This document shows, one piece after another, positions 39,253 through 47,927 of a DNA stretch of 64,000 bases. The notes beneath the pieces are model-generated. The model made no database searches. It worked only from the letters and a program-made list of their open reading frames with translations, and was not told where the DNA came from. The stretch comes from Desulfuromonas acetoxidans DSM 684 (GTDB lineage Bacteria > Desulfobacterota > Desulfuromonadia > Desulfuromonadales > Desulfuromonadaceae), in assembly GCF_000167355.1 (NCBI RefSeq), contig NZ_AAEW02000005.1, forward strand, positions 1 through 64,000. The letters are read 5' to 3'. How positions within the stretch are numbered: the first letter of the stretch is position 1; every line of letters begins with the position of its first letter. Made by a program: the position numbers and the translations under genes.

Positions 39253-40347
39253 TTAATCAAACAGTCTATCCACCGTATCGAAATCCAATTCAATTTCGGC
39301 AAGATGGCCGATCAAATCAATTTTCTCCTGATCTTGAGCCGTAATTTTGGAGACATCATTCTGAATTCGGGTAAAGGCTTCAGAGTTGGTCAAATGGGTA
39401 CGCATATAAGGAATATTACTGTCATCAACAATTCGCGCCGTAATCGGTGAGACCGGCGCATGTCCCGGAATGATCATGCCGGCAATTTTATGGCGGTATT
39501 CCGGAAGATGGTATAGCGATGCCAGCATGACCATCAACTCGTCACGAGTACTGTTGACCAGCAAAAGGCTCGACTCCTCAAGCAGATCCGCAACCCGTTG
39601 TGCTGAAGCAGCACCTAATTGAACATGATGGACAATGCGGTGCTGCTCGTCCAGATTGCCCTTCAGGGGTGATTCTAGCAAGCGGCTGATGCGGTGTAAC
39701 GTGGGGTTCGCCAGGATGGGCGAAAAGTTAAAGCCACCCTGAATGTGAATATCGCGGTTGCCAAAGGCTTTCTTAAGATAATGCATTGTCAATTCACGCT
39801 TGTCGGCAATCAATTTATTTGCTACCAGCATGCGCACCGGAGCTCCTGCCAGTTGGAAAACACTGAGATTCATGCTGACAGCATCAATCGCGCGACCGAT
39901 GCCCCCATCCGTAACCATCATGACCGGAGCATCCAATAATTTAGCAACCTCGGCATTGTTGTAGCCCAACACCGATCCGACTCCAGCATGGCCAGCACCT
40001 TCGATCACCAGAAAATCGCACTCTTTTTCAAAATACCGACATGCTTCGATCATTTTTTCGGCAAAAAAGTCCGGGCCAATCTGGCCATCAAGAACTTGCC
40101 GGGTGGTATCCGCAAACACGGGAACAGGGTTCATCTGGCGGATATGCTCCTCAAGTCCAAAGACTTGAGCCATGAGAACGGCATCTTTATCCACATGGAA
40201 ATTGTTGAACTCAATCAGTTTAGGACCAATAGGTTTGATAAAACCGATACGGGGGTATTTTCGCGCAGCGCGGTACAATAACGACAGGCAGATGGTTGAC
40301 TTTCCGCAGTTTTTACCCGTTGCGGCAACAAAGATTTTTTTTGCCAT
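39253..40347 (-). CDS. COG0857 protein: BioD-like P-loop plus DRTGG domain (Pta N-terminal-like)
   Basis: 364 residues resembling the non-catalytic N-terminal part of long phosphotransacetylases. A BioD/CobB-like P-loop (VAATGKNCGKSTICLSLL), LVIEGAGHAGVGSVLG and a MMVTDGGIGRAID block come first. A DRTGG-type domain (about 220-330: LLLVNSTRDELMVMLAS, GMIIPGHAPVSP) follows. There is no phosphotransacetylase catalytic domain. ATG 40347 follows GGAGGGG; an upstream TTG frame is not needed. Role unknown: regulatory or nucleotide sensing is a guess. Confidence 0.8.
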   Translation of the reverse strand: MAKKIFVAATGKNCGKSTICLSLLYRAARKYPRIGFIKPIGPKLIEFNNFHVDKDAVLMAQVFGLEEHIRQMNPVPVFADTTRQVLDGQIGPDFFAEKMIEACRYFEKECDFLVIEGAGHAGVGSVLGYNNAEVAKLLDAPVMMVTDGGIGRAIDAVSMNLSVFQLAGAPVRMLVANKLIADKRELTMHYLKKAFGNRDIHIQGGFNFSPILANPTLHRISRLLESPLKGNLDEQHRIVHHVQLGAASAQRVADLLEESSLLLVNSTRDELMVMLASLYHLPEYRHKIAGMIIPGHAPVSPITARIVDDSNIPYMRTHLTNSEAFTRIQNDVSKITAQDQEKIDLIGHLAEIELDFDTVDRLFD

Positions 40348-40392
40348 GGAGCCCCTCCGCAAATAAATATCATGTCATATAGATTCAAGCGT

Positions 40393-40773
40393 CTACCAGC
40401 GACTGTCAAATTGACTGGCACAAAGCGCCAACAGACACCAACCGCACAAGAAGGAGATGCCACCAACCGGTGTGATCAGTCCCAAAACAGTCACCTGGGT
40501 CAAAACCAATACATAAAGACTACCTGAAAAAAGAACAATGCCGACAAAAAACAACAAACCGGCTGTTCTTACCCGCCGCACTTCCGGCCAGGTTTTAATA
40601 CACAGGGCGACCAGCAGCAACGCCAGAGCATGATACATCTGATAGTCTACACCCTTTTCCCAGGTGATCAGCAGTTCAGGACTGACCCGTTGACGCAGAC
40701 CATGCGCACCAAACGCACCCAGAGCAACGGAAAGGAATGCGTTCACACAACCAAGAACAAAAAACAATTTCAT
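40393..40773 (-). CDS. DUF423 family small membrane protein
   Basis: 126 residues with four hydrophobic segments and the family signature GAFGAHGLR plus WEKGVDYQMYHALALL. DUF423 (YgdD-like) proteins are inner-membrane proteins of unknown function. ATG 40773 has CGGAG about 10 bases before it. Confidence 0.87.
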   Translation of the reverse strand: MKLFFVLGCVNAFLSVALGAFGAHGLRQRVSPELLITWEKGVDYQMYHALALLLVALCIKTWPEVRRVRTAGLLFFVGIVLFSGSLYVLVLTQVTVLGLITPVGGISFLCGWCLLALCASQFDSRW

Positions 40774-40807
40774 AACAGCCAAACTCCGTTCAGGGCAAAA
40801 GGAAACA

Positions 40808-41269
40808 TTAACGTGTCAGAGTGCGCAGTGAAATCTCTCCTTGTTTCTCTACGGTAATTCCCGGCGCTAACCAGCCAATATTGAGCTTGGCACGCAAGGT
40901 ATAAGTGAACTGATCACGAGGTTGACGGGTCAATTGTGAAATCAGATCAAGGCTGTTGAGTAAGTCGGCGGTAACAGACAACGTCACCTTCTGTTCAGAA
41001 AAGCCCTCAATGCGTGGTAGATCCGACTTAACACCCGTGAGCAAAGGGATTTCTTCGATTTCAAGGGCATAACTCAGCCCGTCAATCTCCAGAGGCTGCC
41101 GGTTATGATTAATAATATTGAGTGTGATGGCAAAACGCGGTGCCAGCCCCTGGCTCTCCATGACGGAGAAACGGGTGACTTGGATCGTCGGCGATTCAAA
41201 CCCTGGCCGCATCCAGGCACAAGAACACAGTGAAAAAATCATAACCAGAGAAATTAATATTTTTGCCAC
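40808..41269 (-). CDS. LEA_2/WHy-domain lipoprotein
   Basis: About 153 residues. Starting at GTG 41269 (AAAGGA 8 bases upstream) it opens with a short signal peptide ending in the lipobox LCSC, so it is a predicted lipoprotein. The body (ITLNIINHNRQPLEIDGLSY..., VTLSVTADLLNSL) resembles the LEA type 2 / water-stress (WHy) fold found in many bacterial periplasmic proteins. An ATG start at 41332 would put 21 extra residues before the signal and is less likely. Function unknown. Confidence 0.78.
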   Translation of the reverse strand: MAKILISLVMIFSLCSCAWMRPGFESPTIQVTRFSVMESQGLAPRFAITLNIINHNRQPLEIDGLSYALEIEEIPLLTGVKSDLPRIEGFSEQKVTLSVTADLLNSLDLISQLTRQPRDQFTYTLRAKLNIGWLAPGITVEKQGEISLRTLTR

Positions 41270-41425
41270 AACAAGGTTCCTTTCAATAAAGTTCATGACG
41301 TCATTGTTAACCTGAATAGGCAACAATTTCAATCATCTATTGGCAAAATAGTAGATTCCCCCCTTCCATCGAGATCTCTGTTATACTTTCAGGTGTAACA
41401 TTTTTCCATTAACGTGGAGGGCGCC

Positions 41426-42001
41426 ATGATTGAATCAATCAATACATCAACACTCGACAGCTTTAAAGCTGAAGCACGGCAATTGCTCGAAGCTGCTGTT
41501 CAAAAAAGACAAATGCAGCAGGAACAAGGACCTCAGAGAGGTGTTCAGGATACCGTGTCTCTCGGCAATAAACCGGTTGATCCAGGAACCTACACTGCCA
41601 GCGTTTCAGATGCTGAGCTGGGCAAAACCTTTACCATGTTGCGTGATCTCTTTGCGACGACTCTGCAGGAACAAGGAATTGCTCTGGAAGTTTCGACCGG
41701 AGACAGCACCATTGATCTGCAGACTCTGACACCGGAACAGGCTCAGGATCTGGTGGCAGAAGATGGTTATTTCGGTGTCGAAAATACCGCCCAACGGATT
41801 TTCGATTTTGCTGTGGGACTGGCTGGCAATGACCCCAGTCGCGTCGATGCCATTAGAGCCGGAATTGAAGATGGCTTTGCCCGGGCTGAAGAAGCCTGGG
41901 GAGGTACTCTGCCAGATATCTCCTATGAAACCAGAGATACATTGATGGCTAAACTTGATGATTGGGTGAATGCCGCCACGGAATCGGCCGAAGCCCCTTA
42001 G
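41426..42001 (+). CDS. Hypothetical DUF5610-like protein
   Basis: 191 residues, no signal peptide. The central and C-terminal part (DLVAEDGYFGVENTAQRIFD, FAVGLAGNDPSRVDAI, RAGIEDGFARAEEAWGG) matches what I recall of the DUF5610 family of short bacterial proteins of unknown function. The N-terminal 50 residues are polar and probably disordered. GGAGGG precedes ATG 41426. Confidence 0.7.
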   Translation: MIESINTSTLDSFKAEARQLLEAAVQKRQMQQEQGPQRGVQDTVSLGNKPVDPGTYTASVSDAELGKTFTMLRDLFATTLQEQGIALEVSTGDSTIDLQTLTPEQAQDLVAEDGYFGVENTAQRIFDFAVGLAGNDPSRVDAIRAGIEDGFARAEEAWGGTLPDISYETRDTLMAKLDDWVNAATESAEAP

Positions 42002-42152
42002 AAAGATTGGCGCAGGCGCACGATTTTAGTCGTACCTAAAAGACTCAGCTCTTTTTTTTACGGGCAAACAGCGCTAGTATGACCGCTTCAACACGCCATA
42101 CTGTTTTTCAATTTGCAATGTGGCGTTTAACTACACGAAGGTTGCCGGTCAT

Positions 42153-43280
42153 ATGAGCCAAATCAGTGTTCCTCAGGGTCAATGGGATCTTTATCGCTAT
42201 CCGGTTCGTAACAATGATCCGTTACGCGCCTGGGATGCTGCGGACGAATTTATCCTCAACGAGTTACACGATCAGAGCTTGCCCCAGCCATCGCAACGCC
42301 TACTGATCGTCAACGACTCTTTTGGCGCATTGAGTTGTTGCCTGCACCCTTATGAGCCGACCTTGGTCAGCGATTCATGTCTAACGTATCACGGGCTATT
42401 ACACAATCTGAAAAGTAACCGGATAGCCCAGGACTGCATCACGTTTTTTGACAGCTTAACCACTCCGCCAGGCCACTATGATATTGTCCTGATCAAAGTT
42501 CCCAAAAGCCTTGCCTTGCTTGAAGATCAACTGGTTCGGCTACGTCCTGTCATCAAACCGGAGTCAGTGATCATTGGCGCCGCAATGGTCAAGCATCTCA
42601 GTGCTTCGGCAATTGAGCTGTTTGAAAAAATACTGGGACCAACTCACACGTCGCTTGCCCGAAAAAAAGCGCGTTTGATCTTCAGTAGCTTTGATGCAGA
42701 GCGCACTCTCACGCCATTGCCTCCCGCCAACCTCCGCTTACCGGAGTTTCAGCTTAATCTGCTACAACACCCTGGCGTTTTTTCAATGAACAGGCTCGAC
42801 TTGGGAAGCCGACTGGTTCTTGAGCAAAGTCACCTACTGCCTCCGGCTAAGGTGATTATCGACTTAGGCTGCGGCAATGGCATTCTTGGCATCACCGCAG
42901 CACGCCAGCAGCCTGAAGCGCACCTCACCTTTGTTGACGAATCGTATCGGGCCGTTGACTCGGCTCGGATCAATTTTGAAGCGATTTTCGGTCATCGCCC
43001 TGCCCGCTTTGAAGTGATCGACTGTTTGAACGGGATCGATCGGGACAGCGCCGATCTGATCATCAATAATCCACCGTTTCACCAGCAACAGGTTGTCGGT
43101 GACCAAGTGGCCTGGCAGATGTTTCGCCAGGCTCGCCAGGTGTTAGGACGTTCCGGGCAGCTCTGGGTTGTCGGTAACCGCCATCTCGGCTACCACACCA
43201 AGCTCAAGCGTTTGTTTGGTAACTGCAAACTCGTGGCCAGCACCCACAAATTTGTGTTGTTGAAAGCAACGAAATCCTGA
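42153..43280 (+). CDS. rlmG: 23S rRNA (guanine-N2)-methyltransferase RlmG-like
   Basis: About 375 residues. A degenerate N-terminal methyltransferase-like domain (PLRAWDAADEFIL) is followed by a catalytic SAM-binding domain with VIIDLGCGNGILGITAA (near 230) and NPPFH (near 300), as in RlmG/RsmC. E. coli RlmG modifies G1835 of 23S rRNA. Starting at ATG 42153 aligns its beginning (MSQISVPQGQWDLYRYP) with E. coli RlmG; GTG 42120 would add 11 residues. RsmC is the main alternative. Confidence 0.82.
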   Translation: MSQISVPQGQWDLYRYPVRNNDPLRAWDAADEFILNELHDQSLPQPSQRLLIVNDSFGALSCCLHPYEPTLVSDSCLTYHGLLHNLKSNRIAQDCITFFDSLTTPPGHYDIVLIKVPKSLALLEDQLVRLRPVIKPESVIIGAAMVKHLSASAIELFEKILGPTHTSLARKKARLIFSSFDAERTLTPLPPANLRLPEFQLNLLQHPGVFSMNRLDLGSRLVLEQSHLLPPAKVIIDLGCGNGILGITAARQQPEAHLTFVDESYRAVDSARINFEAIFGHRPARFEVIDCLNGIDRDSADLIINNPPFHQQQVVGDQVAWQMFRQARQVLGRSGQLWVVGNRHLGYHTKLKRLFGNCKLVASTHKFVLLKATKS

Positions 43281-43329
43281 CTTGATAACGTGGCTTGGAT
43301 TGTCGTTTCTCTTCACTGATACACCGGCC

Positions 43330-44256
43330 TTACGATGGATGATTTTTCCAAGCCTGTTGTTGCTCTGCTGGTAACGTCTTATAATAGAGCTGGATGCCAC
43401 GCAACGAATTGCTCATAAAATAGCGTTCCCGGGCATAAATATCGGTCTCAAGCTGTTCCACAGCACTGAATGTCGGGTCATTATTTAATAACCAGTCATA
43501 AATTACCTCGTCACGTTGTTCTTCAACGATATGATCAGTTACCGCCACTGCTTTCACCCACAGTCCCAACTGCTTGCGGGCTGTTTGCAGATAGCTGACA
43601 GCCGGTTCGACAAGCCCGTGATGGGCAATGACAAGATAGCGCGGCGCCACGGCAATCATTTTATCGATCGAGTCTCTGGCGACTTCATAGATAAAGCGTG
43701 GCGGCGTAGCCGGACGCATATAGCGCCCAGAGTCAACCGGGATATGCACGCCGGCAATCTCTCCACCGAACACCAAGTCTTCATAGCGGTAACAGACATG
43801 ATGTGGCGCATGCCCCGGTGTTTCATACACCTGAATGCCGCTGTTGCCAACTTCTGAAGCGTAAAAGATCGACTGCGACGGCACCGGAATAATTTCGCCG
43901 TAAACTTCGGCAGTTTCTCCCAGTACTTGCAAAGAGCCTTGCCAGAGTTTTTCCGGAGAAATCATATGCTTAATGCCGCTTTGATGACAAATAACTTGAG
44001 CTTCAGGGAAGTACTTGATCAACTCACCGGTCCCTCCGGCATGATCAATATGGATGTGCGTCAACAGGATATAATCGATCGATTCTACCTGCAGATCTCT
44101 CAAGGCATTTACCAGAACCGGAATAGTCGACAATGGTCCCGGATCGACAACAGCACGGAACCCGTCGGTTTCGATATACCAGCTGCTGATAAAGTTTCGA
44201 AATCCTTCCAACTGTGGTTGATCCAGGTAAATACATTTCAACTGTTTGACATTCAT
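43330..44256 (-). CDS. MBL-fold metallo-hydrolase
   Basis: 308 residues. The zinc motif THIHIDHAGG (HxHxDH, about 68) is followed by HAPHHV and, later, a VIAHHG histidine, with Asp in FGGE replaced by a Glu-containing segment (VFGGEIAGVH). C-terminal residues after about 220 form a helical extension. Substrate unknown; glyoxalase II-like or other thioester/phospho-substrates are possible. ATG 44256 (GGAG 6 bases before) is preferred to 44268. Confidence 0.87.
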   Translation of the reverse strand: MNVKQLKCIYLDQPQLEGFRNFISSWYIETDGFRAVVDPGPLSTIPVLVNALRDLQVESIDYILLTHIHIDHAGGTGELIKYFPEAQVICHQSGIKHMISPEKLWQGSLQVLGETAEVYGEIIPVPSQSIFYASEVGNSGIQVYETPGHAPHHVCYRYEDLVFGGEIAGVHIPVDSGRYMRPATPPRFIYEVARDSIDKMIAVAPRYLVIAHHGLVEPAVSYLQTARKQLGLWVKAVAVTDHIVEEQRDEVIYDWLLNNDPTFSAVEQLETDIYARERYFMSNSLRGIQLYYKTLPAEQQQAWKNHPS

Positions 44257-44529
44257 GACGATCTCCATTTAAAGATAAACAGCTTTTGAGCATTGTCCCG
44301 TCGGGCGTAATATTTGTCAACACACCCCTTATTGGGTGACCGTTCCCCACGTAAATGGCCTTTCGGATTCACGCTTACCTACCAAATCAACGGTAAATAT
44401 AACTTTGATTAGCTCAGCATACCTCTATAGCGACTTCAACCGGATCAGTCGTCCACAAAAAGGCTAATTGACGCGAGGGACTAAACATGCCATTTTGTTG
44501 ATCTTCCCGCTCAACCCGGAGGAAACACC

Positions 44530-45762
44530 GTGATTATTCTGACCCTGAACTGTCGCAGCCAGACCATTCATTACCATTTATTCGACTACCCTAACCCTAT
44601 CCCATTAACGCAGGGCTATGTCGAAGGAATAGGCACTCATAGCACCAATTGTATTTTGAACGGCTCGCCCCTGCTGCTCGAAGATCACCACGACGCGCTT
44701 GATTACATTTTAAAAACTCTTTGCCACCCTGAATACGGAGTGTTGGATTCTTTGTCGCAGATCCGTGGTGTGGGGCATCGTGTTGTCCATGGGGGGGAAA
44801 CGTATCATCATTCTGTAAAGATTGATGTCGAAGTTCTGCATACCATTCGCAAAGTTGAGCGCATGGCTCCCAAATACAACATTCCCAGCCGGCAAACGAT
44901 CATCGCGGCCATGGAATTGTTACCCGATGTTGACCATGTCGCCATCTTTGACACGGCTTTTCATCACACTATGCCAGCCAAAGCGTATATGTATCCCCTG
45001 CCCTACGAATGGTATGAAAAATATCGTGTGCGCCGCTACGGATTCCACGGCAGTTCGCATCTTTACTTGGCCCGGCGAGCGGCAGCGCATCTCGGCAAAC
45101 CCGTTGAACAATGCAATTTGATCACTATTCATCTGGATCTCGGTGTGTCATTGTGCGCCATCCGCAACGGTCAGTCCATTGATACCAGTACCGGCATGAC
45201 TCCCGTTGAAGGGACCGCCCAGGAACGTCGCTGCGGTAATATTGATCCAGGCATCCCTGGATTTATCATGGATTGGGAGGAACTCAGTCCGCAACAGATT
45301 GAAGAAGTCCTCAATGAAAAAAGTGGCTTGATGGGCTTGACCGGTGGAGACTGCACAACACGTCAGGAAGTGCTTATCAAAGCCGAACAGAATGATCCTC
45401 GCGCCAAATTTGCTGCGCAGATTGAAGCCTATCGGTTACGGAAGTTTATCGGTGAATACCTCTGTGTCCTCGGTCAATGCGATGCGATCGTCTTTTCTTC
45501 AGGCCAGGGAAATATTGAGGCCGATGTTCGCCGTCGTGTTCTCGACGGAATGGATTGCTTTAACATCCTTCTTGATGAAAAGAAGAATGGCCAACCGCGC
45601 TGTATTCACAGCGAAATAAAAATCAGCCACCCGGATTCAGCCATTGACCTGCTGGTGATCCCAACAGATGAAGCCCGCGTCTTTTGCGAAGATACAGCTC
45701 AAATCGTCAATGGCACCTTTGATCCAACACGCCACATCTCCTACACTTTCGACGATCTGTAA
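44530..45762 (+). CDS. Divergent acetate kinase family protein
   Basis: 410 residues clearly of the acetokinase fold. Conserved: N7 (LTLNCRS), R84 (GHRVVHGG), D141 (IFDTAFHHTMP), H173 (RYGFHGSSH), R234 (RRCGNIDPG) and E381. Altered: the phosphate loop GSSSxK is RSQTIH, HLGNG is HLDLG (N to L at 204), and the GIGEN nucleotide loop is GQGNI. The catalytic acids and arginines remain but ADP-binding loops are unusual, so it may have other substrate use or reduced activity. GTG start behind CGGAGGAAA. No pta gene is adjacent. Confidence 0.82.
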   Translation: MIILTLNCRSQTIHYHLFDYPNPIPLTQGYVEGIGTHSTNCILNGSPLLLEDHHDALDYILKTLCHPEYGVLDSLSQIRGVGHRVVHGGETYHHSVKIDVEVLHTIRKVERMAPKYNIPSRQTIIAAMELLPDVDHVAIFDTAFHHTMPAKAYMYPLPYEWYEKYRVRRYGFHGSSHLYLARRAAAHLGKPVEQCNLITIHLDLGVSLCAIRNGQSIDTSTGMTPVEGTAQERRCGNIDPGIPGFIMDWEELSPQQIEEVLNEKSGLMGLTGGDCTTRQEVLIKAEQNDPRAKFAAQIEAYRLRKFIGEYLCVLGQCDAIVFSSGQGNIEADVRRRVLDGMDCFNILLDEKKNGQPRCIHSEIKISHPDSAIDLLVIPTDEARVFCEDTAQIVNGTFDPTRHISYTFDDL

Positions 45763-45953: not shown

Positions 45954-47927
45954 GTGAAGCTTAATGTGAAATTGATCTCGATCACAGGTGTGCTTTTTCT
46001 TGTCTTTCTTCTTTGTGAAGCCTGGTTTGAATTTATTGAAATACAGGACTATTCGCGTCAACAGATCCTTGAGCAATCACGCAGTATTCGTGATTTTATG
46101 ATGTCAACCCGCTATGTCTATCACCATCAGTTCATCTCCAGTGGCCTACCTCTGACCGATGACACTCTTGGGTTCCTCCCTGCTCATGCCTTAGCACGTA
46201 TCTCGGAGCATTTTGACCAGATCAACCCGACGGAACTCTCATTTAATAACGTCTCAGCCGATCCACGTAATATCTACAATCGTGCTGACAGTATCGAAAC
46301 CAATGTGGTTCGCTATTTCGAAGAACACCCGCAACAAAAGGAGTATTTTGAAAAAGTGGCCACCGGGTCGCGGATATTCTATCAATATGCAACGCCTATC
46401 TGGACAGAAGATTACTGTCTGAGATGCCATGGCGATGCAGATTCCGCTCCCCCGACTATTTCAGCACGCTATACAACCGGGTTTAATTATCATGTCGGCG
46501 ACCTGCGTGGCATTATGAGTGTCCGCATTCCTGTAGAGCATTTCAACCGACATGTCAGAGCACAACTATTGAGTAACGTGCCGGTTATTATGGCGTTCCT
46601 GCTCAGTTTATGCCTGCTGATGTATTGGTTGGTGCAAACCACGATTGTTCATCGCCTAAAGGGGTTGTTAAGGTCAGTCAACTTCATTCGAGAGGGGCAT
46701 TACGATCGGCATATGCCGATCAACGGTCATGATGAGATTGCAGATCTTGCCAAAAACTTTGAGCGGATGGCGCAAGCGATTGCGTTGCGAGAAAATCGTT
46801 TAAAACAGAGTGAACAGCGCCTTGAAAACGCTCAAAGGATTGCCCGAATCGGCAACTGGCAATGGCATGCTGGCCGAAACGAACTATTTTGCTCTGACCA
46901 GATTTACACAATCCTCGATTGTTCGCCGGACAGTGTTCTGACGCCACGGCAGTTTATCCGAAGAGTGCCCTCTTCGCAGAGACAACGTCTTTTTGAGCAT
47001 CTGAAAAACAGCTTTGCAACACAACAGTTCGATGAGTTTGAGACCGTTATCACGGCCGAAAGCTCTGAACTGGGCTATGTTCGACTTCGTGGTGAGTTCG
47101 AGTCACGTCATGGTCAGCTCCTGCTTTCAGGTACATTGCAGGATATAACAACAATGAAGCGAGCCGAACAAGAGATCATCGAATTAAACCACAGTCTCGA
47201 AGATAAAGTGGCTCAACGTACCGAACAGCTACAACGGACCAACAAAGAACTTGAAGCGTTCTCCTACTCCGTTTCACACGATTTACGTGCACCTTTACGC
47301 GCGATAAGCGGTTTTTCGCAGATACTTCAAGATGAATACAGTGAAAACCTGTCGCCTGAAGCAAGCCGATATCTCAGCCTGGTCGTTGATAACAGCCAGA
47401 TGATGGGAACCTTGATTGATGATTTATTGCGCTTCTCGCGACTGAATCGTCATGAATTGAAAAAACAGATGATCGACACCGAGGCCCTTGTCCGCCAGGT
47501 GGTCGATGAGTTGTTACAGGATTGCGTTTATACATTTATTCATGCACCTGAGATTGAAATTGGTTCACTTGAGAGGTGTTACGGTGATCCGGCACTGATT
47601 AAACAGGTTTTTATCAATGTGCTCTCCAACGCCCTTAAATTTACGCAAAAGACCTCTTATCCGCACATCTGTATTACATCAACGCACCAAGGGGAAATTG
47701 TTACTTTTAACATCAGTGACAACGGGGCCGGCTTTGATATGCAATATGCAGAGAAACTATTCGGTGTATTCCAACGACTCCACCATCAGAGCGAATTTAC
47801 CGGTACCGGCGTGGGGTTGGCTATTGTGCAACGTGTCATTGCCAGACATCAAGGAACCATATGGGCGCAGGCGGAACCAAATAAAGGGGCCACGTTTTCT
47901 TTCACCCTGGAAAGGTATGTGGAATAA
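45954..47927 (+). CDS. Haem-binding (Tll0287/DUF3365-like) sensor histidine kinase
   Basis: 657 residues. A membrane segment (about 8-25) is followed by a periplasmic DUF3365-like domain carrying a c-type haem motif CLRCH (C155, C158, H159). A second membrane segment (about 205-225), HAMP, a PAS-like region (about 285-400) and a coiled coil lead to a HisKA with H442 (SVSHDLRAPLRA). The HATPase domain (NALKFT, DNGAGFD, GTGVGLAIV) is of the phytochrome-like class. It probably senses redox state or gas ligands through haem. Its stop abuts the next ATG. GTG start with AGGAG. Confidence 0.92.
   Translation: MKLNVKLISITGVLFLVFLLCEAWFEFIEIQDYSRQQILEQSRSIRDFMMSTRYVYHHQFISSGLPLTDDTLGFLPAHALARISEHFDQINPTELSFNNVSADPRNIYNRADSIETNVVRYFEEHPQQKEYFEKVATGSRIFYQYATPIWTEDYCLRCHGDADSAPPTISARYTTGFNYHVGDLRGIMSVRIPVEHFNRHVRAQLLSNVPVIMAFLLSLCLLMYWLVQTTIVHRLKGLLRSVNFIREGHYDRHMPINGHDEIADLAKNFERMAQAIALRENRLKQSEQRLENAQRIARIGNWQWHAGRNELFCSDQIYTILDCSPDSVLTPRQFIRRVPSSQRQRLFEHLKNSFATQQFDEFETVITAESSELGYVRLRGEFESRHGQLLLSGTLQDITTMKRAEQEIIELNHSLEDKVAQRTEQLQRTNKELEAFSYSVSHDLRAPLRAISGFSQILQDEYSENLSPEASRYLSLVVDNSQMMGTLIDDLLRFSRLNRHELKKQMIDTEALVRQVVDELLQDCVYTFIHAPEIEIGSLERCYGDPALIKQVFINVLSNALKFTQKTSYPHICITSTHQGEIVTFNISDNGAGFDMQYAEKLFGVFQRLHHQSEFTGTGVGLAIVQRVIARHQGTIWAQAEPNKGATFSFTLERYVE

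Follow-up and report, generated by a model that had tools for sequence, protein, structure and literature searches.

A clade-wide acetate kinase variant with rewritten nucleotide loops, probably non-canonical in function, in Desulfuromonas acetoxidans and its relatives

Introduction

What might an acetate kinase relative do when the loops that hold its nucleotide have been rewritten and the residues that transfer phosphate have been kept? A gene of Desulfuromonas acetoxidans DSM 684 raises this question. It lies in a 64,000-nucleotide stretch, the window analysed here (positions 1 to 64,000 of contig NZ_AAEW02000005.1, forward strand). A sequence-only reading had described it as an acetate kinase paralogue with altered phosphate and nucleotide loops, and had proposed either an enzyme with another phosphoryl donor or acceptor or a regulatory pseudo-kinase.

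Acetate kinase (AckA) is a dimer in which Arg91, His180 and Arg241 serve the transferred phosphoryl group. Residue numbers and the loop alignment follow the Methanosarcina thermophila enzyme (1g99) as reference. In this enzyme (PMC4390882), Asn211 touches the beta-phosphate and is bonded to Gly239; replacing Asn211, Gly239 or Gly331 singly lowers activity approximately 6- to 200-fold. PMC5517563 describes Leu122 as lining the acetate pocket and Val93 as limiting the chain length of the substrate. Our literature search found no report of selective loop loss in acetate kinase or of a link to Desulfuromonas.

Results

Gene and Product

The paralogue occupies positions 44530–45762 on the plus strand, begins with a GTG start and encodes 410 amino acids without an internal stop, and is thus an intact open reading frame. 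Its assignment as a divergent acetokinase draws on the reading frame, family models and orthologues. The product matched the Pfam Acetate_kinase model (PF00871) over residues 3–384 (E 1.1e-108; 363.9 bits against a cut-off of 22) and also passed TIGR00016 (364.9 bits against 293.4). An AlphaFold2 model built from a 34-row alignment (mean pLDDT 78.1) has the acetokinase fold, and its top matches in the PDB were acetate kinases (TM 0.82/0.84 to 2iir), the nearest solved relatives being those of Treponema, Thermotoga and Methanosarcina. Confidence falls below a pLDDT of 50 at residues 146–171, 224–246 and 258–264, a range that takes in LOOP3, so the model is unable to show the pocket. Two other assignments were rejected: the protein scored 298.1 bits with the propionate kinase model NF009045 (cut-off 580) and 47.3 bits with the model of butyrate kinase (TIGR02707, cut-off 289.1), an enzyme of the same superfamily.

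All five nucleotide loops are altered in the alignment to M. thermophila AckA. PHOSPHATE1 (44548–44571, plus strand, as are all features of the gene) reads NCRSQTIH where the canonical motif is NxGSSSxK; Gly9, Ser11, Ser12 and Lys14 have become Arg, Gln, Thr and His, Asn7 and Ser10 are kept, and the GSSSLK of M. thermophila is replaced by RSQTIH. PHOSPHATE2 (45130–45144) is HLDLG in place of HxGNG (HLGNG in M. thermophila), with Gly210 changed to Asp and Asn211 to Leu. In LOOP3 (45211–45231), GTAQERR stands for GLxMGTR; Gly239 is Glu, and the final Arg234 corresponds to the kept Arg241. LOOP4 (45343–45372), where the alignment is less certain, reads GGDCTTRQEV, with Thr at Asp283 and Gln at Arg285. 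The ADENOSINE loop (45502–45519) is GQGNIE for the canonical GIGENS, in which Ile332, Glu334 and Asn335 are replaced by Gln, Asn and Ile and both Gly331 and Gly333 are kept.

The residues of phosphoryl transfer are preserved. Arg84 (44779–44781), Asp141 (44950–44952), His173 (45046–45048) and Glu381 (45670–45672) align with Arg91, Asp148, His180 and Glu384, and His208 is retained together with Arg241, Asn7 and Ser10. Lys115-Tyr116 (44872–44877) replaces Leu122-His123, so that the conserved active-site His123 is a Tyr. The protein is therefore like AckA (EC 2.7.2.1; PF00871/TIGR00016) in fold, length, phosphoryl-transfer residues and the Phe179/Pro232 of the acetate pocket, and unlike it in PHOSPHATE1, PHOSPHATE2, LOOP3, LOOP4, part of ADENOSINE and the Lys/Tyr pair. 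The predicted product is confirmed by alignment as a well-preserved acetate kinase relative with rewritten nucleotide loops and kept phosphoryl-transfer residues. The sequence-only reading was accurate on the PHOSPHATE1, PHOSPHATE2 and ADENOSINE changes and on the kept catalytic Arg, Asp, His and Glu; the changes in LOOP3 and LOOP4, the altered acyl pocket, the replacement of His123 and a clade that spans the class were absent from it.

Canonical Copies and Genomic Context

Besides the window gene, the host genome carries two further acetokinase genes, both with canonical loops, on contigs C12 (L002) and C10 (L001), making three in all. The expectation that this gene is a paralogue and that a classical ackA lies elsewhere was thus borne out twice over, and of the case that the earlier reading had set against itself, normal activity with ATP together with no second ackA, the second half does not hold. 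A phosphotransacetylase gene faces the C12 copy tail to tail, and the C10 copy is near betaine-reductase components, a betaine transporter, thioredoxin and SelB. From these contexts, the roles of a Pta–AckA pair and of a kinase for betaine-derived acetyl phosphate each seem to be served by a canonical enzyme. The C10 surroundings (locus L122; G000:C10, 8649–19587) include a GrdH-like reading frame beside components C alpha and beta, and the betaine transporter there is of the BCCT family. The GrdH-like frame stops at 348 aa and the 435-position family model runs on, as an in-frame Sec TGA would give; this gene set suggests ATP gain from betaine reduction.

Upstream of the paralogue, a ribosome-binding-site-like sequence, GGAGGAAA (44518–44525, plus strand), ends 4 bases before the GTG, and its GGAGG is found in 5 of 6 aligned upstream regions. 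A −35-like TTGACG (44468–44473, plus strand) is identical in all six aligned genus members; it was not among the promoter matches of a consensus scan, which gave only a minus-strand site in the upstream region. On the side of the neighbouring gene, TTTGTCAA is likewise identical in 6/6 upstream regions. That neighbour, a divergently transcribed metallo-beta-lactamase-fold hydrolase (43330–44268, minus strand), adjoins the paralogue in all six genus loci, the window included, and a block of seven genes (39253–45762) is conserved in the same 6/6 orthologue loci.

At the far end of this block, six genes from the paralogue, a free-standing AAA_26 and DRTGG protein (39253–40362, minus strand; 6/6 genus loci) resembles the N-terminal half of a long phosphotransacetylase (NF004167, E 2.5e-30 over residues 6–362, below the model cut-off). 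Among the seven window genes scanned around the paralogue, none encodes a phosphotransacetylase catalytic domain. On the other side, a histidine kinase gene with a Tll0287-like sensor (45954–47927, plus strand) adjoins the paralogue in the window and in G008 but is missing from that place in the remaining four loci of the genus. In G011 (L120), a 36% relative of this histidine kinase directly follows the paralogue.

Extent and Phylogeny of the Divergent Clade

Orthologues 94, 93, 90, 86 and 72% identical to the window protein were found in five other genomes of the genus, with loops the same or nearly so, which argues that the altered loops are more than chance. Members of the divergent clade were found in at least 52 genomes of the class. 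Scoring of 14 nucleotide-loop positions in 212 rows (duplicates, the reference, the window, L159 and L206 included) gave a two-peaked distribution: 155 rows had 0–3 changes, none had 4, and 57 had at least 5, one of these (L159) being a frameshift artefact. The high-scoring peak comprised the window's orthologues (72–94%), more distant members of the same order and many second copies elsewhere in the class. Named records from this rest of the class were Pelotalea, Geobacter and Geobacteraceae, here called the Geobacter side.

A phylogeny of the acetokinases, a check that the sequence-only reading had proposed, placed the window gene within a divergent clade apart from canonical AckA. In a tree from which the loop columns and the 119–127 stretch had been removed, 37 divergent and 39 canonical rows split on one branch (bootstrap 100, in all 200 trees; SH-aLRT 97), a split that also appeared in a quick tree of 95 rows (SH-aLRT 99). 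Since one branch is recovered without the loop columns, the members of the clade share one history and did not decay independently of each other. The position of L012 inside the clade differs between the two trees. The first-branching members, L276 and L277, share 65% identity with the canonical L002 protein, have milder loop changes and might still be ordinary kinases; the most extreme degeneration was seen in L283 and L285. The 43- and 53-row sets used below and the trees leave out L156, L159 (frameshifted), L167, L206 (in-frame TAG) and near-duplicate loci. L206 (G228:C68) is a clade copy with one in-frame TAG, either a broken copy or an assembly error.

The clade likely includes AckA-2 of Geobacter (GSU3448/Gmet_0149), a protein called uncharacterised in 2009 and named AckA-2, for GSU3448, in PMC4121341. 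This placement of GSU3448 is likely because, among 11 genomes examined of family code f24, ten carry a copy with the clade motifs (L259, L276–L283 and L285), nine of which the tree placed in the clade; in the eleventh, G193, both acetokinase genes are canonical and the clade is not represented, which shows that an extra copy need not be a clade member. The published AckA-2 peptide GIRLDRERN was present in L077, L213 and L279 only and was uninformative as a marker.

Beyond the class, we examined 395 genomes drawn from the phylum and the best 80 loci from a contig scan of 583 relatives, both of which favour close relatives, so remote clades may exist elsewhere. Eighteen genomes of the draw passed E 1e-170; 17 belonged to the class, and a clade member was present in five of these (G000, G144, G160, G161 and G206); the single strong match outside the class (L254 in G456) had canonical loops. 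Among the best 80 loci, those outside the class had canonical loops wherever the loop was present (L109 is without the N-terminal loop).

Two further groups of acetokinases were observed. L178 (G016:C1:2858800-2860200) is a separate variant outside the clade that carries Tyr at 285 and Ser at both 211 and 239, two positions at which the eukaryotic acetate kinases described in PMC4390882 differ as well. L175, L176, L180 and L190, all of family code f4, form a further subgroup with intact loops. Three of these four adjoin the divergent clade in the 37 + 39-row tree (L190 was left out there), and all four make a separate group in the quick tree. This subgroup is a possible clue, from its tree position, to the origin of the divergent clade.

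Conservation and Selection

At least 97% of 137 canonical rows agree at 114 positions; at 13 of these, the majority of 43 clade rows differ (positions 9, 11, 14, 125, 153, 210, 211, 239, 248, 283, 286, 330 and 334). The five nucleotide loops hold 10 of these 13 positions against 16 of the 101 others (Fisher p 1.4e-5, in a test that treats positions as independent, uses loop borders set by the analyst and is partly circular, the canonical rows having been selected by at most one loop change). This count agrees with the earlier description of a paralogue altered chiefly in its nucleotide loops.

Within the clade, 53 rows were compared, of which 52 are distinct (L077 and L279 are identical, and three pairs are more than 97% identical). 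Gly9 was replaced by Trp, Arg or Leu in every one of the 53; it was kept in all 155 low-scoring rows except L167, which lacks the stretch. Position 210 was acidic in 39/53, Asn211 was replaced in 47/53 (37 with a basic residue) and Gly239 in 41/53, and Asn7 was kept in only 32/53. A salt bridge between acidic 210, basic 211 and acidic 239 was considered as an explanation and rejected: all three occur together in only 23/53 rows, and the window protein has Leu211. On the other side of the active site, Arg91, Phe179, His180 and Pro232 were kept in 53/53 rows, Asp148, His208 and Arg241 in 52/53 and Glu384 in 49/53. The losses were in L285 (Asp148 and Arg241), L283 (His208 and Glu384) and L184, L185 and L022 (Glu384), which leaves the acyl side incomplete in some members. 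The acyl pocket is also altered in the clade. Val93 is Ala in 30/53 rows, all outside the window's branch, and is kept in the window protein; Leu122 is Lys in all eight rows of that branch and Arg in L012.

Selection was estimated among the six genus orthologues. Eleven of 15 pairs were measurable, dS being infinite in the other four; ten gave dN/dS of 0.030–0.059 and one 0.100, values that are rough because most pairs approach saturation at synonymous sites (dS was at most 1.1 in only 3/15). The window gene gave 0.046 and 0.034 against its two closest orthologues, and canonical ackA orthologues gave 0.012–0.039. Amino-acid change is a small share of the DNA change among the genus orthologues. 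The paralogue is faster-evolving than canonical ackA but constrained, and its low dN/dS indicates that it is not decaying.

Co-Resident ackA and Neighbours Across the Class

Of the 52 clade carriers, genomes chosen for carrying a clade member (one, G228, with the in-frame TAG copy), 48 also have an intact canonical ackA with 70–100% identity to L002. On this evidence the clade gene accompanies AckA and does not replace it. As for the four exceptions, ackA is frameshifted in G002 and in two contig-end pieces in G207, and none was found in G005 (80% complete) or G254 (88% complete). The G002 case is L159 (G002:C1:1943400-1944900), the only canonical ackA found in a one-contig genome of the same genus; it is split over two overlapping frames whose halves are 97 and 98% identical, from a sequencing error or a real loss.

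Gene neighbourhood was rejected as a guide to function. The distant members L119, L120 and L121 have none of the seven-gene block of the genus, L120 sharing only the histidine-kinase relative (36%), and associations on the Geobacter side are scattered. Among 19 Geobacter-side loci (L236, L240 and L241, where ORF calling missed the clade gene, were left out), an acetyl-CoA hydrolase/transferase-family gene lies directly upstream on the same strand in three and a MarR-type gene in four others; Pfam was run on one CoA-transferase-family and three MarR genes, and the remainder were named by clustering. At L035 (2–3145) and L077 (966–5603), a large reading frame directly upstream of the paralogue resembles the glutamate synthase large subunit by sequence reading.

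Discussion

The alignments and trees of predicted proteins show one clade, under purifying selection, with the acyl-phosphate residues kept, the nucleotide-loop residues replaced and a canonical ackA co-resident. From these we infer a loss of normal ATP use, and the clade is an acetate kinase variant whose function is probably non-canonical. Our preferred reading is that it may be an acetokinase derivative that binds acyl phosphates or carboxylates, a retained duplicate that has given up normal ATP/ADP exchange and either acts on phosphate or only senses its ligand. We consider the chances of this reading to be even, an estimate that spans the chemistry and the sensing options and overlaps both the regulator discussed below and an ATP-independent enzyme.

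Under this model, a duplicate of acetate kinase would have been retained, giving a clade now present in more than one order of the class. The ancestral phosphoryl-transfer half-site would still bind a small carboxylate or acyl phosphate. The nucleotide half-site would be out of use, with phosphate exchange with ATP/ADP below a useful rate because other residues now stand where the nucleotide was held. The site would then pass phosphate to another acceptor or to water, or would only sense its ligand. Since Arg91, His180 and Arg241 are kept, some chemistry may remain, whether to water, phosphate or another acceptor; the company of AckA and the scattered regulatory neighbours make a sensing or heterodimer role conceivable; and the Gly331, Gly333 and Asn7 kept in the window protein could permit weak nucleotide binding.

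The strongest rival, which we regard as possible if doubtful, is that these proteins would still be ATP-dependent short-chain acid kinases that act on another acid (propionate, or a charged or longer one) and handle nucleotide more slowly. The altered acyl pocket, with Val93 changed to Ala in 30/53 rows and Leu122 to Lys in the window's branch, agrees with this, and so does the CoA-transferase-family gene directly upstream in three of the 19 Geobacter-side loci. The propionate kinases TdcD and PduW are like those 30 clade rows in the Ala at the Val93 position and unlike the window protein, which keeps Val93 and falls far under the NF009045 cut-off; the loops of TdcD are canonical. Salmonella propionate kinase appears to have this Ala as Ala88, a correspondence drawn from aligned ranges of equal length and a 13-residue tag (A88 mutants are named in PDB titles). 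By BLAST, Gmet_0149 lies nearer to the propionate kinase of E. coli than to its acetate kinase (PMC2700814), but GSU3448, if a clade member, lies in a route that is lower on propionate than on acetate (PMC13274346). A change of acid would also leave the acidic 210 and 239 and the loss of Gly9 and Asn211 in most members unexplained. The Entamoeba enzyme, the one pyrophosphate-dependent acetate kinase known, is an improbable parallel. It shares an altered adenosine-side loop with the window protein, Gln332 of the window's branch falls within the stretch of the Entamoeba Gln-Met that narrows the adenosine pocket (PMC5517563), and the basic residue at 211 in 37/53 rows could hold phosphate. The substitutions are otherwise different: the Entamoeba histolytica enzyme has Gln331, Met332, Thr211, Ser239 and an extra Gly in PHOSPHATE2 (PMC4390882 and PMC5517563), whereas in the window protein these positions read Gly331, Gln332, Leu211 and Glu239, and PHOSPHATE2 carries no insertion. 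Filing the protein with the Entamoeba type was rejected on the Gln-Met at 331–332 and the PHOSPHATE2 Gly, and the acidic 210 and 239 would be ill-suited to pyrophosphate.

That the protein is a regulatory pseudo-kinase, a catalytically silent ligand-binding partner of canonical AckA or an acetyl-phosphate sensor, is unlikely in our view, although an intact ackA accompanies it in 48/52 carriers, it directly follows a MarR-type (4) or CoA-transferase-family gene (3) in 7/19 Geobacter-side loci, and the protein resembling a phosphotransacetylase N-terminus (39253–40362) belongs to the same conserved genus block. Silent pseudo-enzymes often lose catalytic residues. Here the phosphoryl-transfer residues are nearly invariant (Arg91 and His180 in 53/53 rows, Asp148 and Arg241 in 52/53), which argues against a plain scaffold. 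The same near-invariance, with the conserved upstream elements, the low dN/dS in the genus and the open frames of the other clade copies listed, makes a decaying duplicate without function barely credible, even with loops degenerate to differing degrees, the missing catalytic residues of L283 and L285 and the in-frame TAG of L206; for the window's branch in particular, the selection signal argues against decay. The sequence-only reading as a whole is partly supported.

The preferred reading, that of an acyl-phosphate- or carboxylate-binding derivative, has a more specific form that we offer tentatively and think unlikely as it stands: the clade would be an acetokinase of a new kind, one that acts on acyl phosphates independently of ATP (as a phosphatase, or as a transferase to a non-nucleotide acceptor) and sets the acetyl- or acyl-phosphate pool beside AckA–Pta in Desulfuromonas and Geobacter relatives. 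TIGR00016 was passed by the window protein and by all five other clade members scanned, and the family models name them acetate or propionate kinases, so metabolic models of metal- and electrode-respiring bacteria may list these genes as another ATP-forming acetate route. Should the ATP site truly be lost, those models and the readings of knock-outs would need correction. The clade is also an experiment of nature, one that rewrote chiefly the nucleotide half of an acetate kinase, and bears on how the choice of phosphoryl donor evolved in the acetate and sugar kinase superfamily.
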